Origin: Dickeya chrysanthemi NCPPB 402
Lineage (GTDB): Bacteria; Pseudomonadota; Gammaproteobacteria; Enterobacterales; Enterobacteriaceae
Direction of reading: 5' to 3'
Assembly: GCF_000406105.1 (NCBI RefSeq)
Contig: NZ_CM001974.1
Coordinates: forward strand, 4,377,536 to 4,441,535
Length of the DNA stretch: 64,000 bases
Shown: in pieces, positions 36,177-58,441 of the stretch
Layout: every line of letters starts with the position of its first letter
Position numbering within the stretch: position 1 is the stretch's first letter
Made by a program: the position numbers and the translations under genes
The notes under the pieces: model-generated
Seen by the model: the letters and a program-made list of their open reading frames with translations, nothing else
What the model was told of the DNA's origin: nothing
Databases searched by the model: none

Positions 36177-37231
36177 ATGACACCTTATCAACAGGCACGG
36201 CTGGCGCCGCTACTGCAACGCTGGCGCACTGAGCGGCAGCTCGGCACGCCGCGCCTGCCGTCTGGCCCGCACAACCGTCTGAGCGACGTAGCCGGCGTAC
36301 GGGTCGGCCACCATACGCTGGCGCACGGCGAAATTCAGACCGGCGTTACCGCCATCGTGCCGAACAGCGACAACCTGTTTACACAACCGTTGCCCTGCGG
36401 CGCGGCGGTGCTCAACGGCTTCGCCAAACCGGTGGGGCTGGTGCAGATTGAGGAACTGGGGCGCTTGCAGACGCCGATTCTGCTCAGCAACACCCTGTCG
36501 GTCGGTACGCTGTTTACTACGCTGGTGCGCGATGCGATCAACCGTAATCCGGAGCTGGGCCGCCGTTTGCCGACCGTCAATCCGCTGGCGCTGGAGTGCA
36601 ACGACGGCTGGCTCAATGATATTCAGGCGCTGGCGGTGACCGAAGCGATGGCGCGTGCGGCATTGGATAACGCCACGGCGGATTTCGCCCGCGGCAGCGT
36701 CGGTGCCGGGCGCGGCATGAGCTGCTTCGCGCTCAAAGGCGGCATCGGCACCGCCTCCCGGCGGATGCGGAACTGAACGCCACCCTCGGCGTACTGGTGC
36801 TGGCTAATTTCGGCACGCTGCCGGCCCTGACGCTGGACGGCGTGCAAGTCGGCGAAGCCATCGCTCCCCTGCTGCCGGAACTGACGCCCCAGCACGACGC
36901 CGGTTCCATCATTATTATTATGGCCACCGACGCCGCGCTCGACGCCCGCCAGTTGACCCGCATCGCCCGCCGCGCCGGTGCCGGACTCGGGCGGCTCGGC
37001 AGCTATTGGGGACACGGCTCCGGCGATATCGCGGTGGCCTTTTCCACCCAGCCCACGCCGCAGCCGCCGGAAGACGCACAACTGGAACCGCTGCTCAACG
37101 CGGCGGCCGACGCCACCGAACACGCGGTGCTGGATGCATTATTGCAGGCCGAGGCCGTCACCGGTTTTCGCGGCCACCATCGCCCGGCCCTGACGCAGGT
37201 GCTGGACCGTCTGGCACAAGATTTCGCATAA
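36177..37231 (+). pseudogene. P1/DmpA family aminopeptidase, one-base frameshift
   Basis: Read as two frames this is a complete P1 (DmpA/BapA) peptidase of about 351 residues. The first frame runs to a stop at 36776, past VGAGRGMSCFALKGGIGTASRR. The second resumes with AELNATLGVLVLANFG and carries the DAGSIIIIMATDA block, where the Ser after Gly is the expected autoprocessing nucleophile. One base is missing near 36757-36764 (CCCGGCGG). P1 enzymes release N-terminal L- or D-residues from short peptides and amides. The rest of the gene shows no decay, so a sequencing indel or very recent mutation is likely. Confidence 0.85.
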
Positions 37232-49993: not shown

Positions 49994-50857
49994 ATGATTC
50001 GTAGCATGACCGCTTACGCCCGGCGAGAAATCAAGGGTGACTGGGGCAGCGCCGCCTGGGAGTTGCGCTCCGTAAACCAGCGTTATCTGGAAACCTACAT
50101 CCGTTTACCCGAACAATTCCGAAGCTTAGAGCCGGTAATCCGCGAACGCATCCGCAACCGTCTGACCCGCGGCAAAATCGAATGCGGCCTGCGTTTTGAG
50201 CTGGACCCACGTGCACAGGGGCAACTCATCCTCAACGAACAACTGGCTAAACAGCTGGTAGCGGCGGCGAACTGGGTGAAACTGCAAAGCGACGAAGGCG
50301 AAGTCAACCCGCTCGACATCCTGCGCTGGCCGGGGGTGATGTCGGCACAAGAGCAAGATCTGGACACCATCAGCGCTGAACTGATGCAGGCGCTGGAAGC
50401 CGCGCTGGACGACTTCATCCTCGCCCGCGAAAGCGAAGGCAACGCGCTCAAAGCGCTGATTGAACAACGGCTGGTCGGCGTCAGCGCCGAGGTCGCCAAA
50501 GTCCGCGCCCACATGCCGAACATTCTGCAATGGCAGCGGGAAAAACTGCAAAGCAAGCTGGAAGAGGCGCAAGTGCAGCTCGACGGCAACCGGCTGGAAC
50601 AAGAGCTGGTGTTGATGGCGCAACGCATCGACGTGGCCGAAGAACTCGACCGGCTCGAAGCCCACGTGCGGGAAACCTACAAAATCCTCAACAAGCAGGA
50701 AGCCGTCGGCCGCCGTCTGGACTTTATGATGCAGGAATTCAACCGCGAGTCGAACACGCTGGGTTCCAAATCCATCAACGCCGACGTCACCGCCTCCGCC
50801 ATCGAACTGAAAGTGCTGATCGAGCAAATGCGGGAACAGATTCAGAATATTGAGTAA
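49994..50857 (+). CDS. yicC: YicC/YloC family endoribonuclease
   Basis: 287 residues from the ATG at 49994 (MIRSMTAYARREIKGDWGSA). The YicC N-terminal domain is followed by the DUF1732 C-terminus (RLDFMMQEFNRESNTLGSKS). Recent work assigns endoribonuclease activity to this family. In E. coli it is divergent from and adjacent to rph; here it is separated from rph by the peptide island but keeps its orientation. Confidence 0.94.
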   Translation: MIRSMTAYARREIKGDWGSAAWELRSVNQRYLETYIRLPEQFRSLEPVIRERIRNRLTRGKIECGLRFELDPRAQGQLILNEQLAKQLVAAANWVKLQSDEGEVNPLDILRWPGVMSAQEQDLDTISAELMQALEAALDDFILARESEGNALKALIEQRLVGVSAEVAKVRAHMPNILQWQREKLQSKLEEAQVQLDGNRLEQELVLMAQRIDVAEELDRLEAHVRETYKILNKQEAVGRRLDFMMQEFNRESNTLGSKSINADVTASAIELKVLIEQMREQIQNIE

Positions 50858-50894
50858 CACCTCACAACGCATCACCCACCATCAAAAAACCAAT

Positions 50895-50920
50895 AAGCCC
50901 GCCGCATAGCGGGCTTTTTT
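50895..50920 (+). terminator. Intrinsic terminator of yicC
   Basis: AAGCCCGC / GCGGGCTT stem followed by six T residues, about 40 bases after the yicC stop. Confidence 0.9.
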
Positions 50921-51050
50921 GTTATCATGGGCTATCATCAGGAAGCAACAAAGCGCATGATAATGAAATAAAAAAGCATAAAATATACTCTGTATGATAT
51001 ACATCATTTTTATCTCGGCGGCTACTAATTAGTCAAAAAGATAAGTGGTA

Positions 51051-51177
51051 TATACCCAAAATAATTCGAGTTGCAGGAAGGCGGCAAGAGAGTGAATCCC
51101 GATGAGCTTACTCAGGTAAGTGATTCGGGTGAACGAACGCAGCCAACACACCTGCAACTTGAAGTATGACGGGTATA
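51051..51177. repeat. ERIC element, full length (127 bp)
   Basis: Exactly 127 bp from TATACCC to GGGTATA. The core GTGAATCCCGATGAGCTTAC and GTAAGTGATTCGGGTGAACG correspond to the conserved ERIC halves, forming a long imperfect palindrome. It is the uninterrupted version of the other two copies in the window. Confidence 0.93.
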
Positions 51178-51333
51178 GTCGATATAGCTCAGGAATACAG
51201 CGGTAAAATAGTTAATCTGTTATCAATGATAGTTTTTTATTTCTTTGATAAGAAAAACCGCTTAGGTATATATTATACACCTCTATTATAATGGCCGGTT
51301 GTATCATGATAAAAGTAGTCGATTATTAATATA

Positions 51334-51512
51334 CTAGGGTGTGTCCCGTAACTATTTTTTTTACAGTTCAGCATTGTTATAACTGTGCAAAAAAAACGCT
51401 TTAAGCGATAAAGAACGACTAAAAACGATCAATGTTTAACCAAGAATCATATTTCGGAAATGATTCTTGCAGCACTTTTTAGCGTGTAGGGAGGTTAAGG
51501 GACAGACCCTAG
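51334..51512. mobile_element. MITE-like element with 19-bp terminal inverted repeats
   Basis: Left end CTAGGGTGTGTCCCGTAAC (51334-51352) and right end GTTAAGGGACAGACCCTAG (51494-51512) are inverted repeats matching at 17 of 19 positions. The 179-bp interior encodes nothing but contains a strong hairpin (AAGAATCAT / ATGATTCTT at 51442-51468). The CTAG ends would fit TA-type target duplication. It looks like a non-autonomous element or the collapsed ends of an insertion sequence. It ends about 48 bases before the retron RNA. Confidence 0.65.
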
Positions 51513-51560
51513 GATTAACTAAGCATTGATTTATAAAAAAAACCTTGTTAGCATAAATTC

Positions 51561-51685
51561 GGGCCTATAGAAAGATTTTGTATCATGTTTCGTGATATGT
51601 GAAAAAAAAGTTAGAGGCAACGCCCTAAGTATGCTCGGTTATGAGGAACTACCTCACGCCCTGCTAAAGAGTTTCTATAGTGCCC
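51561..51685 (+). ncRNA. Retron msr-msd RNA
   Basis: The outer a1/a2 inverted repeat is GGGCCTATAGAAA (51561-51573) and TTTCTATAGTGCCC (51672-51685), pairing over 13 bases with one bulge. Directly after a1 comes GATTTTG, like the GATTTG following a1 in retron Ec67, so G51574 is the candidate branching guanosine. A hairpin TATCATG-TTT-CGTGATA (51581-51597) has the UUU loop typical of msr stems. The following segment (about 51609-51671) folds back on itself (TTAG...CTAA, TGAGG/CCTCA) as expected for msd. Length 125 nt, close to Ec67. The reverse transcriptase starts 26 bases later. Confidence 0.82.
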
Positions 51686-51710
51686 TTTATCAATTCTATT
51701 AGAGAGTCAT

Positions 51711-53389
51711 ATGAGCTTCCTGGCTAAACTAAAAGAATCTCAGAACATTTCAGATATTGCAAATCTGCTTGGTTGCTCACCAAAATCATTAGCATATACT
51801 ATCTATAAAAGCCAAAATAATTATATAACATTTAAAATTAGTAAGAAAAATGGTGGTCACAGAGATATTAAGGCACCAGCAAAAAAACTTAAGGAGTTGC
51901 AGCGGCGGCTTGCTAAAGGATTACAAGAGTGTATCGAAGAGATACATGGTAAAAAAATAAAAAGATATCCTCGCATGGTTATACAAAAGGAAAATCAATT
52001 TTTACGAATGCTTATGAGCATAAAAATAAAAATCTTGTACTAAATCTTGATTTAGAGGATTTTTTTGACAGTATCAATTTTGGAAGAGTCAGAGGATATT
52101 TTATCCACAACAAAAATTTTATGCTTCCAGAAAAGACAGCAACGATTATTGCCCAAATTGCTTGCCATGAGAACAGTCTTCCTCAAGGCAGCCCCTGTTC
52201 CCCTGTAATATCCAATATGGTTGCTCAAATATTAGATGTAAAACTCAGTGCATTAGCAAAGAAAAACAAATGTTTCTATACTAGATACGTCGATGATTTA
52301 ACTATATCAACCAATAGAAATGTCTTTCCTATTGATATTATGGAATTACATGGCCACAACCCTATTATTGGGAAATCATTAATAAATGAAATAAAAAGAT
52401 CTGGTTTCACGATTAATGATAATAAAACAAGAGTCCAACGTAAGAATTCAAGACAGGACGTTACAGGATTGATAGTAAACAAAAAAGTTAATGTCAAGTC
52501 TGAGTTCAAACATCTTGCCAGAGCAATGGCCAATAATTTTTTCAAAAATAATCAAGCATTCATGTCCTTAAGCGGAGAAAAAACGCCTATAAGCCTTGAA
52601 AAACTTAATGGGATGTTAAGTTTCATATATCAAATAAGAAATAGAATGGATGTGCAAAATGCCAATGATCAACCTAGAAAAGCACATGACTCATTTGAAA
52701 AAACTTATTCTGATTTTTTGTTTTATAAAAATTTTGCAGCAAATAGTAGAACAGTCGTAATATGTGAAGGTGAAACCGATAACATATATTTGAATTATGC
52801 TTTTAAAAACTTGGTAAGTTATTATCCTGAACTACAGAACTATGGAAAGGGAATCAAAAAAAGAATAGACATTCATTTGTTCAAGCAGACCAAGTTACTT
52901 TCTCGATTATTAAATATTACCGATGGAACAGGGAATAACATCAAATTATTAAACACTTATCAGAAAAGAATGAGTAGATTTTCATCTCCCCCGAGAAAGT
53001 TTCCAGTTATATTGCTACTTGATAACGACAGCGGATCAGTTAGCGTTGAAGGAGTGATCAACAGAGAATTTATGGAGACTCGGGAAATACTCGATGGTTT
53101 TATTTATGTATGTGAAAACTTTTATGTTGTTAAAACCCCTTTGATATTTGATATGAAAGAAACAAAAATAGAGGATTTTTTCGACACAAAAACTTTGTCT
53201 AAAAAATTAGGAGAAAAAAGTTTTACAACCAACAATAAATTTGACAAAAATCTTTATTTTGGCAAGAAAAAATTTGCAGAAATAATTGTTAAACAGAATC
53301 ATAGAGATATTAATTTCTCAAAATTCAAGATGATTATTGATTTATTTCAAAATATTATTATTGATTATAGACGTAGAATGGATATATAA
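51711..53389 (+). pseudogene. Retron reverse transcriptase-TOPRIM fusion (Ec67-like), interrupted by -1 frameshift
   Basis: Joined across one frameshift this is about 559 residues; Ec67 RT has 586. The first frame (51711 to about 51960) encodes the N-terminal RT part (FKISKKNGGHRDIKAP). The rest is in the -1 frame: the retron X motif NAYEH, NLDLEDFFDSINFGRVRGYF, PQGSPCSPVISN, the catalytic YVDD and the Y-region VTG (DVTGLIVN). A TOPRIM domain follows (VVICEGETDNIYL, then LLLDNDSG). RT makes msDNA from the adjacent RNA; TOPRIM is the presumed toxic effector in type I-C retron defence. The shift lies at A7-T-A5 (51951-51963), where one added A restores the Ec67-like sequence. Possible sequencing indel, inactivation or slippage. 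Confidence 0.85.
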
Positions 53390-53390
53390 A

Positions 53391-53894
53391 TCACATACGT
53401 AATCTAAATCGACCGTTTGCTGGTGCTTTTGACTTGAAATTTGGCTGAGCCATTAATATAATATTACTCTCATTGAGAGATTTTATTATTGATTTATGCC
53501 TAGGCCGTAACTTGGCTGCCATTCTATCGGAAATTCTATCCATATCTTTCCATCGTTTAGTATAAGAATCATAACTTTCATCGTATATTATCCTTAATAG
53601 ATCATCAGTGAATTCACTTTCTTCATTTTGATGTAGCTCTTTCGCTATCTCAGAAGCTATATCATAAATCCTAGCAATGACCTCCATATCGGTATCGACA
53701 CCATGAAGTTCATTAGTTGCTAACCAAAAATACTCCTGGTGCAACTCTCCTAACTTAAGCATTAACTGATACTCAGATGCTCTTAGCTTGCTCGTTGCCT
53801 CAGAGTGCATTTTTATTTTATGATTTATAAAAGCAGCAATTAATGAAACAAGAACACCGCTTATAAATCCAAAGAAAATTGAATATATGTTCAT
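53391..53894 (-). CDS. Small membrane-anchored protein of unknown function
   Basis: 167 residues from the ATG at 53894 (MNIYSIFFGFISGVLVSLIAAF); ten more codons are open upstream. One N-terminal membrane helix (about 3-23), then a mostly helical, charged cytoplasmic region with no motif I recognise. Its stop is two bases from the retron stop, so the two genes converge, and it shares the retron's AT-rich composition. It diverges from the first XRE gene across the paired operators, so it may be under that repressor. Not a known retron effector as far as I can tell. Confidence 0.6.
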   Translation of the reverse strand: MNIYSIFFGFISGVLVSLIAAFINHKIKMHSEATSKLRASEYQLMLKLGELHQEYFWLATNELHGVDTDMEVIARIYDIASEIAKELHQNEESEFTDDLLRIIYDESYDSYTKRWKDMDRISDRMAAKLRPRHKSIIKSLNESNIILMAQPNFKSKAPANGRFRLRM

Positions 53895-53987
53895 AACTAA
53901 TCTACAATTGCTAAAATAAAGCACATGACATTCAACATAACTAATGTATACCTACAACGCCAGCATAAAATAATACATCAACTATAA

Positions 53988-54036
53988 CTACGATAATCGT
54001 AGTATCTAAACCCCCTCATGACTACGAATATCGTAG
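53988..54036. promoter_or_regulatory. Paired palindromic operators before first XRE gene
   Basis: CTACGATAATCGTAG (53988-54002) and CTACGAATATCGTAG (54022-54036), both CTACGA-N3-TCGTAG, have centres 34 bp apart. The second ends two bases before the chosen XRE start codon. The same arrangement recurs upstream of the second XRE gene, which implies autoregulation. Confidence 0.82.
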
Positions 54037-54038
54037 CC

Positions 54039-54371
54039 ATGAATACTTCCCAACAACGCCACGATGTTTTCAGCCAACGTTTAAAGGATGCCCGCTTATT
54101 GCGTGGGCTGTCCCAGAAAGGGTTGGGTATCGCTGCCGGAATCGATGAGTTTGTTGCCAGTGCACGCATTAATCGCTATGAAAAGGGTGTGCATGAAGCG
54201 AATATCGTGACCGCGAAGCGTCTTGCAGAAGCGCTCAATGTCCCCCTGGCTTACTTCTATGCTGATGATGACAATCTGGCAAAAATGATCCTGTTGTTTG
54301 CCGATTTACCCAGAGAGCAGCAGGAAAAAGTGCTGGCATCGTTAGACAATAACCAGCCTGAAACAACGTGA
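54039..54371 (+). CDS. XRE-family transcriptional regulator (first copy)
   Basis: 110 residues from the ATG at 54039 (MNTSQQRHDVFSQRLKDARL). I chose this start by comparison with the second copy, where the ATG also follows the operator by two bases; an upstream ATG at 54018 would place the operator inside the gene. Helix-turn-helix at about residues 13-65 (RLLRGLSQKGLGIAAGIDEFVASARINRYEKG). The C-terminal part may dimerise. No room for a normal ribosome-binding site is left between operator and ATG. Roughly two-thirds identical to the copy at 54.7 kb. Confidence 0.85.
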   Translation: MNTSQQRHDVFSQRLKDARLLRGLSQKGLGIAAGIDEFVASARINRYEKGVHEANIVTAKRLAEALNVPLAYFYADDDNLAKMILLFADLPREQQEKVLASLDNNQPETT

Positions 54372-54378
54372 AACGTGC

Positions 54379-54636
54379 TTAACACGATTTCGTTCTTATC
54401 CTGATTTTACGATCAATCAATTCACCATCCTGACCGTAATACCGGCTCGGCCATATCTCGGCAGGGTGAATTCCCAGCGCTTCGGCAACCAGCCATTCCC
54501 CCTTCGGCCAGGGCCTGACCAATACATTCGCCAGTGTTGATGCACTCAAACCCGCAGAGCGGGAAAGCGCTGCCATCGAGGTACGTTGCTTGTGCAGAGC
54601 GGCGATAATATCTGCCTGATGCCAATCCTTTTTCAT
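54379..54636 (-). CDS. Nlp/Ner-type DNA-binding regulator (SfsB-like)
   Basis: 85 residues from the ATG at 54636 (MKKDWHQADIIAALHKQRTS). It matches the Nlp/Ner lambda-repressor-like fold: WHQADIIAALHK, SMAALSRSAGLSASTLANVL, RPWPKGEWLVAEALGIHPAEIWPSRY. Relatives are phage Ner proteins and E. coli Nlp (SfsB). It sits in opposite orientation between two XRE copies and its promoter region holds the second operator pair, so the second XRE protein probably represses it. Confidence 0.87.
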   Translation of the reverse strand: MKKDWHQADIIAALHKQRTSMAALSRSAGLSASTLANVLVRPWPKGEWLVAEALGIHPAEIWPSRYYGQDGELIDRKIRIRTKSC

Positions 54637-54683
54637 CCAGCCTCCTGACTCGTCACCGTTATGAAGAATAATTACAGCAAATA

Positions 54684-54732
54684 CTACGTTATTCGTAGTA
54701 TCTCGCTCAAGCAAAAACTACGATTCTCGTAG
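54684..54732. promoter_or_regulatory. Paired palindromic operators before second XRE gene
   Basis: CTACGTTATTCGTAG (54684-54698) and CTACGATTCTCGTAG (54718-54732) share the CTACG/CGTAG arms of the first pair and have the same 34-bp centre spacing. They occupy the divergent nlp/XRE promoter region; the second site ends two bases before the XRE ATG. Confidence 0.82.
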
Positions 54733-54734
54733 TC

Positions 54735-55055
54735 ATGAAAGCAAAACCAAACTACCATGACGTTTTCTGTCAACGGCTTAAGCAAGCCCGGCTGGCAAAA
54801 GGTTTGTCACAGAAAAAACTCGGCATCGCTGCCGGAATTGATGAATTCGTGGCAAGCCCCCGTATTAACCGCTATGAAAAAGGCGTGCACGAAGCCAGCA
54901 TCGATACCGCTCAGCAACTCGCGGACGCACTTGATGTCCCGCTGGCATTCTTCTATACCGCAGATGACCAACTGGCTGAATTGATGCTGGCGTTTTGGGA
55001 GATGCCGCCAGAAAAACGGGCAGAGATTTTAGCGTTAGCGCAAACAGGTGAATGA
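54735..55055 (+). CDS. XRE-family transcriptional regulator (second copy)
   Basis: 106 residues starting MKAKPNYHDVFCQRLKQARLA. The helix-turn-helix (GLSQKKLGIAAGIDEFVASPRINRYEKG) is nearly identical to the first copy, including the recognition region, so both proteins should bind the same CTACGA sites. The C-terminal half differs more (FFYTADDQLAELMLAFWEMP). The start codon is two bases after an operator, leaving no space for a standard ribosome-binding site. Confidence 0.87.
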   Translation: MKAKPNYHDVFCQRLKQARLAKGLSQKKLGIAAGIDEFVASPRINRYEKGVHEASIDTAQQLADALDVPLAFFYTADDQLAELMLAFWEMPPEKRAEILALAQTGE

Positions 55056-55142
55056 TATTCCGCACATCCAGAAAAGAGCGCTCTTAACGGTGTATGGCGC
55101 TAAAACGGCGGGTTTACAGCGGGCCGGAAGACGTTGAAGCAA

Positions 55143-55179
55143 CATCGCCGCCCCCATCATACGGCAGGGGGCGGCGATG
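55143..55179. terminator. GC-rich hairpin downstream of aguA
   Basis: Perfect 13-base arms CATCGCCGCCCCC and GGGGGCGGCGATG with an 11-base loop, between the convergent second XRE gene and aguA. No T-run, so termination is probable but not classical. Confidence 0.55.
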
Positions 55180-55182
55180 AGA

Positions 55183-56280
55183 TTAGCGGTGTGCCGCCGG
55201 GATTTGCTGGGTAATACAGTGGATGTTGCCGCCGCCCAACAGGATTTCGCGCGCCGGTACGCCGCTTATCAGGTAGTCGGGGAACATCTGTTGCAACAGC
55301 GTATGCGCCTCGCCGTCGGTGCGTTCGTCCAGTAGCGGATAAATAATCTGCTTATTGCTGATCAGAAAATTGACGTACGAGCCCGCCAGCCGTGACCCGG
55401 CGTTGCGTTCAATCGCGTTGCCCTCGGTCACGCCCGCCGCTTCTTCCGGTGTGGCGTACAGCGGGCCCGGTGCCGGCAGTTTCCAGATTTTCAGCGACCG
55501 GCCCTGGGCGTCCTTCACCTGCGACAACACCTGATACGCCGCCTGAGAGCGGGCGTACTGCGGGTCGTCTTCGTCGTCCGTCCAGTGCAGCGCCACTTCG
55601 CCGGGGCGGATAAAACAGCACATGTTGTCGATGTGGCCGTCGGTTTCGTCGTTATAGACGCCCTCTTCCAGCCAGATAAACGCCGACACGCCGAGATAAT
55701 CCCGCAGGTGTTGCTCAATCTGCGCTTTGCTCAGATGCGGATTGCGGTTCGGGTTTAACAGGCACTCGGCGGTGGTCAGCAGCGTGCCTTCGCCGTCGGT
55801 ATGGATGGAGCCGCCTTCCAGAATCAGCGGTGCGGCGTAGCGTGCATCGCCATGATGCGCCAGCACCTGCGCCGCGACTTTCTCGTCACGGCGCCAGTCT
55901 TCATACAATCCGCCAAGCGCGCCGCCCCAGGCGTTGAACTGCCAGTCTACGCCGCGGCGTTCACCGGCATCGTTCAGCACCACGGTTGGCCCGGTGTCCC
56001 GCACCCAGGCATCGTCGCTTTCCATCTCCACCAGCGTCACGCCAGCCGGCATCACGCTTTTGGCCAGCGCCATTTGGTCACGCGGCACGCCCATGATAAC
56101 CGGCGTAGTCTGTGCAATGGCGGCGGCGACGGCGGCAAAGGTGCGCTGTGCCGGAATCGCATCGCCTTGCATACGCCAGTTGTCGCGGCGGTACGGCCAC
56201 AGCATCCACACGGCGTCGTGCGGCACCCATTCCGCTGGCATGGAGAAACCGTCCTGCAACGGCGTGGTCAGTTCAGACAT
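55183..56280 (-). CDS. aguA: Agmatine deiminase AguA
   Basis: AguA converts agmatine to N-carbamoylputrescine and ammonia, the route from arginine decarboxylation to putrescine. 365 residues from the second Met ([20 protein letters not shown]). Guanidino-group modifying fold with [33 protein letters not shown] and the catalytic Cys in [14 protein letters not shown]. It follows aguB by three bases, forming the operon aguB-aguA. Confidence 0.96.
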
Positions 56281-56283
56281 CAC

Positions 56284-57479: not shown

Positions 57480-58441
57480 TCAGAACAGCTTCTTGGCGGT
57501 ATTCAGCCAGTCGCCTTTGAACGGACGCTTCATGTTCTCGATGGCGTCGATAATATCATGGTGGACCAGTTTTTCATTCTGGATCCCGACGCAACGGCCG
57601 CCGTAGCCCTGCTGCAACAGTTCGATGGAATACGCGCCCATGCGGGAGGCAAGAATGCGGTCATACGCTACCGGCGAACCGCCGCGCTGGATGTGCCCCA
57701 GCACGGTGGCGCGGGTTTCGCGTTCGGTTTCCGCTTCAATATAGTGCGCCAGCTCATCCACGTCGCACACCAGTTCGGTAATCGCCACAATGGCGTGTTT
57801 TTCCCTTTGGCGATACCCGCTTTGATCTCTTCCACCAGGTCTTCTTTTTTGAAGTCGACTTCCGGCAGCACGATGAACTCACAGCCCCCGGCGATCGCCG
57901 CGGCCAGCGTCAAATCGCCGCAATGACGCCCCATCACTTCCACAATGGAAATACGCTGATGGGAAGAGGAGGTATCGCGCAGGCGGTCAATCGCTTCCAC
58001 TACGGTTTCCAGCGCGGTGAAGTAACCGATGGTGTAATCGGTGCCCGCCACATCGTTATCAATGGTGCCCGGCAAACCGATGCAGGGGAAACCCATTTCG
58101 GTCAGGCGCTTGGCCCCCATGTAGGAACCGTCGCCGCCGATGACCACCAGCGCGTCCAGATCACGCTTTTTCATGTTTTCTACGCAGACCTGGCGCACCG
58201 CTTCTTCGCGAAACGCCGGGAAGCGGGCAGACCCGAGGAAAGTGCCGCCGCGGTTGATCACATCCGATACGCTGTAGCGGTCCAACTGCACCATGCGGTC
58301 TTCGTACAAACCCAGATAGCCGTCATAAATGCCGTATACGTCCAGGTTTTCCGCTAACGCGGCACGCACCACACCACGAATGGCCGCATTCATCCCCGGC
58401 GCATCGCCACCGCTCGTCAGTACTCCGATTTTTTTAATCAT
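57480..58441 (-). pseudogene. pfkA: 6-phosphofructokinase PfkA, one-base frameshift in the sequence as given
   Basis: PfkA is the committing step of glycolysis. Reading through one frameshift gives exactly 320 residues, the E. coli length, with [28 protein letters not shown], the catalytic [12 protein letters not shown] and the C-terminal [16 protein letters not shown]. The first frame goes wrong after AGIAKGK. The correct continuation [19 protein letters not shown] is in the next frame. One base is missing from a five-base T run on the plus strand (57798-57802). All motifs before and after are perfect, so a sequencing indel is the most likely cause; otherwise the strain would depend on a minor phosphofructokinase. 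Confidence 0.92.

Follow-up and report, generated by a model that had tools for sequence, protein, structure and literature searches.

A moved Ec67-kind (RT-Toprim) retron with a broken reading frame between yicC and aguA of Dickeya

A retron of a known kind in the yicC-aguA interval

We analyzed 64,000 nucleotides of the Dickeya chrysanthemi NCPPB 402 genome (referred to below as the window; the genome, G000, comprises 4,700,353 bases in 21 contigs) and found in it a retron belonging to a known kind already solved in E. coli. An msr-msd RNA of this kind lies at 51561-51685, in an A+T-rich stretch between yicC and aguA, the RT motifs and most of the mapped Toprim residues are present in the coding region behind it (51711-53389, plus strand), and the unit has moved. 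Taken as a whole, the locus is very probably best explained as an Ec67-kind (Retron-Eco2) retron that was acquired by horizontal transfer and works by an Eco2-like mechanism. The first-pass annotation had placed an Ec67 (RT-TOPRIM)-type retron at 51561..53389, and this assignment is borne out by the best PADLOC and NCBIfam families and by a solved Ec67 homologue. It did not foresee that the reading frame is broken, that the copy of a related genome (G198) is broken as well, or that the site behind yicC is variable; it spoke of a "frame correction" solely in its refutation clause.

The retron RNA

The elements of the RNA, all on the plus strand, are as follows.

51561..51573, plus: a1 arm, pairing with a2 in a helix that covaries over 11 retrons
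51574, plus: branching G, predicted from alignment with the E. coli S10 Eco2 locus, in which its homologue is rG15
51580..51598, plus: msr hairpin with a UUU loop at 51588-51590
51610..51670, plus: predicted msd template of 61 nt, with its ends placed as in Eco2 (rG52 and the dT1 template)
51672..51685, plus: a2 arm, with one bulged base at 51681

The a1/a2 inverted repeat and the UUU-loop hairpin announced by the first-pass annotation were thus both found, and alignment with the Eco2 locus points to 51574 as its candidate branching G. In order to identify homologous positions, the Eco2 locus of E. coli S10 was read directly as a reference, at the coordinates given in the available text of PMC8934634. 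Its branch G15, rA49-rU51, rG52 and 67-nt msd agree with the positions in the available text of PMC12405507, and on this numbering the homologous sites here would be the branching G at 51574 and the msd template at 51610-51670. The region 51555-51700 folds with an energy of -40.6 kcal/mol (z -3.38), equalled by 2 of 200 shuffles. The self-complementarity ascribed to the msd was the weakest part of the original observation, since the predicted msDNA by itself folds barely above shuffled sequences (z -1.26, with 26/200 equally good). The RT start at 51711 does adjoin the RNA, although at 25 bases from the end of a2 and not the 26 claimed. The locus has the layout of a retron, an msr-msd RNA with an a1/a2 helix adjoining an RT, the branch itself being predicted by analogy with Eco2.

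We then built a covariance model of 20 pairs from the RNA regions of nine retrons from other genera, namely, Lelliottia (L004), E. coli (L072, L073, L075 and L076), Proteus (L074 and L079), Shewanella (L078) and an acidobacterial MAG (L005). Left out of training were L077 and L080, which are copies of L073 and L074, L029, which comes from the same genus as the window, and L002, L003 and L006-L011, whose RNA had been missed by the motif scan. The model scored window positions 51558-51689 at 90.6 bits (E 9.1e-24), while the runner-up in the 64 kb reached 11.5 bits and the eight adjoining 20-kb stretches of the same genome gave a single match of 10 bits. The RNA of G198 scored 90.0 bits, Eco2, which was outside the training set, 72.8 bits, and all eight RT-Toprim loci missed by the motif scan were recovered at 47.5 to 91.9 bits. 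The earlier suggestion to check whether an RNA model recognizes 51561-51685 was thus answered positively with our own model, while Rfam found no retron in the window at either gathering or permissive thresholds. Three E. coli loci of the Ec67 family likewise gave no retron match in Rfam, so its silence on the window says little.

Over 11 sequences including the window, both sides had changed in 13 of the 20 pairs, and 84.5% of the cells paired. The covariation score was 0.527, compared to 0.226 in shuffles (0/500 as high), and dropped to 0.063-0.208 when the partners were slid. Further pair types in the 11-sequence alignment were not above shuffle level (278/500 as high); these counts are depressed by three sequences with longer loops and by four outermost pairs drawn with the bulge of the window. 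Promoter-like sites were at chance level (16 versus 15.3 expected), and we therefore claim no promoter.

The RT-Toprim protein

The coding region behind the RNA contains the following features.

51711..52043, plus: ORF with the RT N-terminus; follows P0001 over residues 1-82 and then leaves the family frame
51951..51957, plus: run of A in which the RT frame is lost
52007..52021, plus: NAxxH motif, upstream of the first ATG of the second ORF and in its frame
52121..53389, plus: second ORF, 422 aa, with the remaining RT and the Toprim domain; begins at family residue 138
52286..52297, plus: YVDD catalytic motif
52460..52468, plus: VTG motif
52751..53386, plus: Toprim domain, by alignment to Eco2 369-586
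52766, plus: Toprim glutamate codon
53021-53029, plus: Toprim DND

The family frame is split between two ORFs that part in the run of A at 51951-51957. PADLOC gave RT-Toprim_I-C as the best family for both pieces (5.9e-27 and 3.4e-146), and the first NCBIfam match of both was retron_Ec67_fus (3e-24 and 2.5e-134); the respective scores, 85.4 and 448.8 bits, each lie below the 450-bit cutoff, which is set for the whole protein. By its best family model, the protein is therefore assigned to the RT-Toprim class, I-C or Ec67, the PADLOC label I-C presumably being the published type I-C. The protein database holds an unbroken form of 559 aa (P0001; 7 member sequences, 2 contigs) to which the second ORF is 100% identical across its 422 residues, and residues 6-554 of P0001 match the solved Retron Ec67 chain at 4.9e-111. 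The fusion of RT to TOPRIM claimed at first holds for P0001, while the window gene reads as two ORFs. Similarly, NAxxH, YVDD and VTG are all present as claimed, but in the frame of the second ORF and not in that of the start codon at 51711, a break on which the earlier reasoning was silent. By sequence, the RT with NAxxH and VTG expected of a retron is found in the frame of the second ORF. A dN/dS of 0.135 against G198 over 538 codons (0.107 over 284 codons for yicC) indicates that the RT-Toprim protein was under selection until recently.

Aligned with Eco2, the protein keeps F46, K66, R70, NAxxH, Y-DD, VTG, E374, G375, D378, D460, D462 and E515; differences include R184, T249, R264, H281, R332, S513 and the alanine of YADD. 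Five of the six mapped Toprim metal-site residues are thus kept (E374, D378, D460, D462 and E515), while S513 is replaced by K486. H281 corresponds to N275, and R332, which is needed for Eco2 defence according to the available text of PMC12405507, corresponds to K324, although this position falls in a loop with gaps and its alignment is not secure. K562, as printed in the same text, is an aspartate in the deposited Eco2 chain and lies outside the six mapped residues.

The break in the reading frame

Because the break in the RT-Toprim frame falls close to the N-terminus, the copy in the window is expected to make no msDNA, provided that the base calls are correct. The cause may be an indel in the assembly or a fresh mutation. 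We give an even chance to the reading in which the break is an indel error of the assembly and the organism has a working retron. The break sits in a single-base run, and P0001, unbroken and identical over the second ORF, comes from a record whose longest contig is 105,682 bases, compared to 4,669,628 bases for the contig of the window. Window ORFs that are whole in relatives are split at three sites (36767, 51953-51965 and 57788-57824), so that two further genes share this fate, the pfkA-like gene at 57788-57824 (whole in G203, G198 and G204) and the gene at 36767 (whole in G198 and G204). However, the 36767 site has no long run, and the excess of splits is small: a comparison of 224 kb of the same genome with G203, run without the overlapping-ORF filter, gave one split in 150 matched ORFs, as did its reverse control (1/150), and the reverse controls with G198 and G204 gave one each, that of G198 being its retron. 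These similar counts indicate that the assembly is not grossly faulty. Four further splits against G203, found with a lower identity limit (1969, 9106, 56281 and 56286), were dropped as antisense or divergent ORFs.

At slightly under an even chance, the break is real and recent, and the retron of this strain is a new pseudogene, as the G198 copy may be. The latter has a separate break in its Toprim part (L029, 7196-7226) and several more indels in its convergent gene, and a split N-terminus occurs in 2 of the 18 listed records of one E. coli group (L081 and L082). Against a pseudogene stands the state of the gene elsewhere. The RT frame is continuous in 9/9 other Enterobacterales loci found with the RNA model (from residues 1-7 to 442-491 of P0001, the stretch examined), and among 60 listed of 525 matching E. 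coli records, 57 are annotated as one retron gene, while one of the other three is split by IS1 and two have an unannotated fragment. Unbroken frames are thus the norm.

It is highly unlikely that programmed slippage in the run of A joins the two frames or that the run serves as an on/off switch for the system. The window break does lie in a run of A and the G198 break in a run of C, but the two are at different places, P0001, G198 and the Lelliottia L004 protein read continuously through the position of the window break, and the frame was split in none of 22 other loci over the stretch examined. The broader idea that single-base runs in RT-Toprim genes act as on/off switches, with Dickeya lineages toggling a costly defence by slippage so that a broken copy would be reversible rather than decayed, is in our view extremely improbable.

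Transfer of the retron unit and the variable site behind yicC

The retron lies between yicC, which ends at 50857, and aguA (55183-56283, minus strand), whose product has its best named matches in Dickeya dadantii (95%) and then Brenneria (85%). The unit shared with G198 is

50962..53944, no strand: unit common with G198 at the same locus, minus 51044-51510 (two repeats and the intervening bases), which occurs in the window only

As stated at first, it is rich in A+T against GC-rich neighbors, with a G+C content of 0.22-0.39 across the unit compared to about 0.55-0.68 in the flanking genes. The proposal of transfer was upheld, and the comparison with related Dickeya genomes suggested along with it showed the same unit in G198, also between yicC and aguA (window 50962-51043 and 51511-53944, the latter at 90.3% over 2,436 aligned bases). 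A full-length match to the retron protein was found in 2 of nine genus genomes (G000 and G198); three of the remainder had partial matches at 33-39% identity and four had none. When the two carriers are compared, identity is 97.5 and 95.1% in the RT pieces and 98.4% in the msr-msd, compared to 91.3% in yicC and 89.8% in aguA. With dS at 0.14 in the RT pieces and at 0.31 in yicC, the retron is less diverged than its flanks, which favors exchange after the species parted, although this low divergence does not extend to the convergent ORF (74.7%).

In each of the eight other genus genomes, homology to the window behind yicC stops at 50855-50961, and the content behind the yicC 3' end varies among the nine. 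G204 carries a SIR2-like gene and a PD-(D/E)XK gene, G202 a PDC-S67-like gene, G097 a phage-type integrase, and G199 a set of three genes, one of them of NA37 type, followed by the same regulator pair as in the window; G200 and G203 have other genes. In G201, a 164-aa gene that matches PDC-S09 weakly, and that we take to be a nucleotidyltransferase, is accompanied by a 142-aa gene and by a 206-aa gene equal in length to the LysE-type gene examined in G198. The terminal bases of yicC occur twice in G202, as at an integrase target. According to the available text of PMC8409611 and PMC8978831, islands integrate at the yicC 3' end. In 3 of the nine genomes (G000, G198 and G201), yicC and aguA are close together, and they lie far apart or on separate contigs in the other six, making the yicC side the likelier integration site.

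Two observations concern the same region. The separation of yicC and aguA in 6/9 genus genomes suggests a rearrangement end within window 50857-55183. The G199 set (L033, 2615-6804) encodes proteins of 471, 523 and 347 aa, the last being NA37-like; it had no PADLOC match and is a candidate defense set.

Neighboring genes and repeats

One gene adjoins the retron in both genus copies:

53391..53894, minus: convergent ORF, 167 aa, predicted to be all-helical; indels in G198

Searches with it used 53391-53891, the first Met being excluded. Its fold model, built on three sequences, had a mean pLDDT of 71 and was judged too weak for a structure search. The gene has a relative in Photorhabdus (P0122), which as a query matched 1 of 394 genomes of the order, that of the window itself, and it is unrelated to the gene beside the E. 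coli retron L072.

Upstream of the retron lies a MITE-like element (51331-51515) with 22-base inverted ends and 10 matches in the same genome; it is not found upstream of the G198 retron. A palindromic repeat at 51046-51180 has at least 44 matches in the genome (40 of 208 candidates scored) and weakly matches Rfam V_AS5 and Ysr49; both matches begin at 51050, on the repeat, and were rejected as retron RNA. Two similar HTH regulator genes (54018-54371 and 54735-55055) flank an SfsB-like gene, and the two regulators also follow different cargo in G199 (L033), with one copy in G200 (L032). The minus-strand gene 57480-58441, frame-shifted at 57788-57824 and whole in G203, G198 and G204, is presumably pfkA, and the gene split by a frame shift at 36767, whole at 351-362 aa in G198 and G204, looks to us like a DmpA-type peptidase.

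Proposed mechanism and significance

By analogy with Eco2, reverse transcription of the retron RNA would start from the branching G at 51574 and yield an msDNA of about 61 nt, which with the RT-Toprim protein would form an inactive complex. Damage to the msDNA by a phage nuclease would then release the Toprim domain to cleave RNA, and this cleavage would halt phage growth. Synthesis of msDNA, complex, trigger and RNase activity are all carried over from Eco2, whose antiphage activity through an RNase effector is shown in the available text of PMC12405507; tRNA is the target according to that of PMC12956279.

The finding leaves the understanding of retrons unchanged. Its contribution is an RT-Toprim retron whose msd is shorter and whose metal site has one altered residue; the literature searched on retrons in Dickeya and Dickeya solani, a scope outside which subscription journals mostly fell, gave no description of it for this genus. 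In addition, our covariance model recognizes the RNA from acidobacterial MAGs to E. coli, whereas Rfam is silent on the window and on three E. coli loci, and the locus shows an exchange of defense-like cargo behind yicC.

Distribution and comparison with known retrons

A protein search at E 1e-30 matched 3 of 198 family genomes, and the RNA model 10 of 394 order genomes, the window's own included in both; an RT-Toprim frame follows the RNA in the other nine. With P0001 or P0005 as the query, no related loci were found in viral contigs. Phage records gave no DNA match and 52 protein matches, of which one covered 80% of the query, with 34.6% identity. Among plasmids, 12 records matched by DNA, without any of them covering 80% of the query, and 199 by protein, 18 of them over 80% of the query and all of these below 60% identity.

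The G198 retron is the same unit at the yicC-aguA locus, but its frame break lies inside the Toprim part, and a tyrosine integrase gene and two genes of transposase type are present there as well. A group of RT-Toprim proteins 64-65% identical (P0002-P0005 and that of Lelliottia sp. V86_10, L004) shares a nearly identical msr and a similar msd and protein start. Unlike in the window, the L004 frame is unbroken; its stretch lacks a relative of the convergent gene, and none of its 8 ORFs of at least 90 aa resembles yicC.

Compared to Retron-Eco2 (Ec67; E. coli S10; PDB 9lm3 and 9i2f), the msd is shorter (about 61 nt versus 67 nt), the hairpin loop is UUU instead of AAU, the catalytic motif is YVDD instead of YADD, S513, H281 and probably R332 are replaced, and the protein has 559 aa (P0001) versus 586 aa, its frame being broken in the window. 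In common with Eco2, the RNA runs in the order a1, branch G, GATTT(T)G, one hairpin, msd and a2, and a single RT-Toprim protein (P0001) goes with it.
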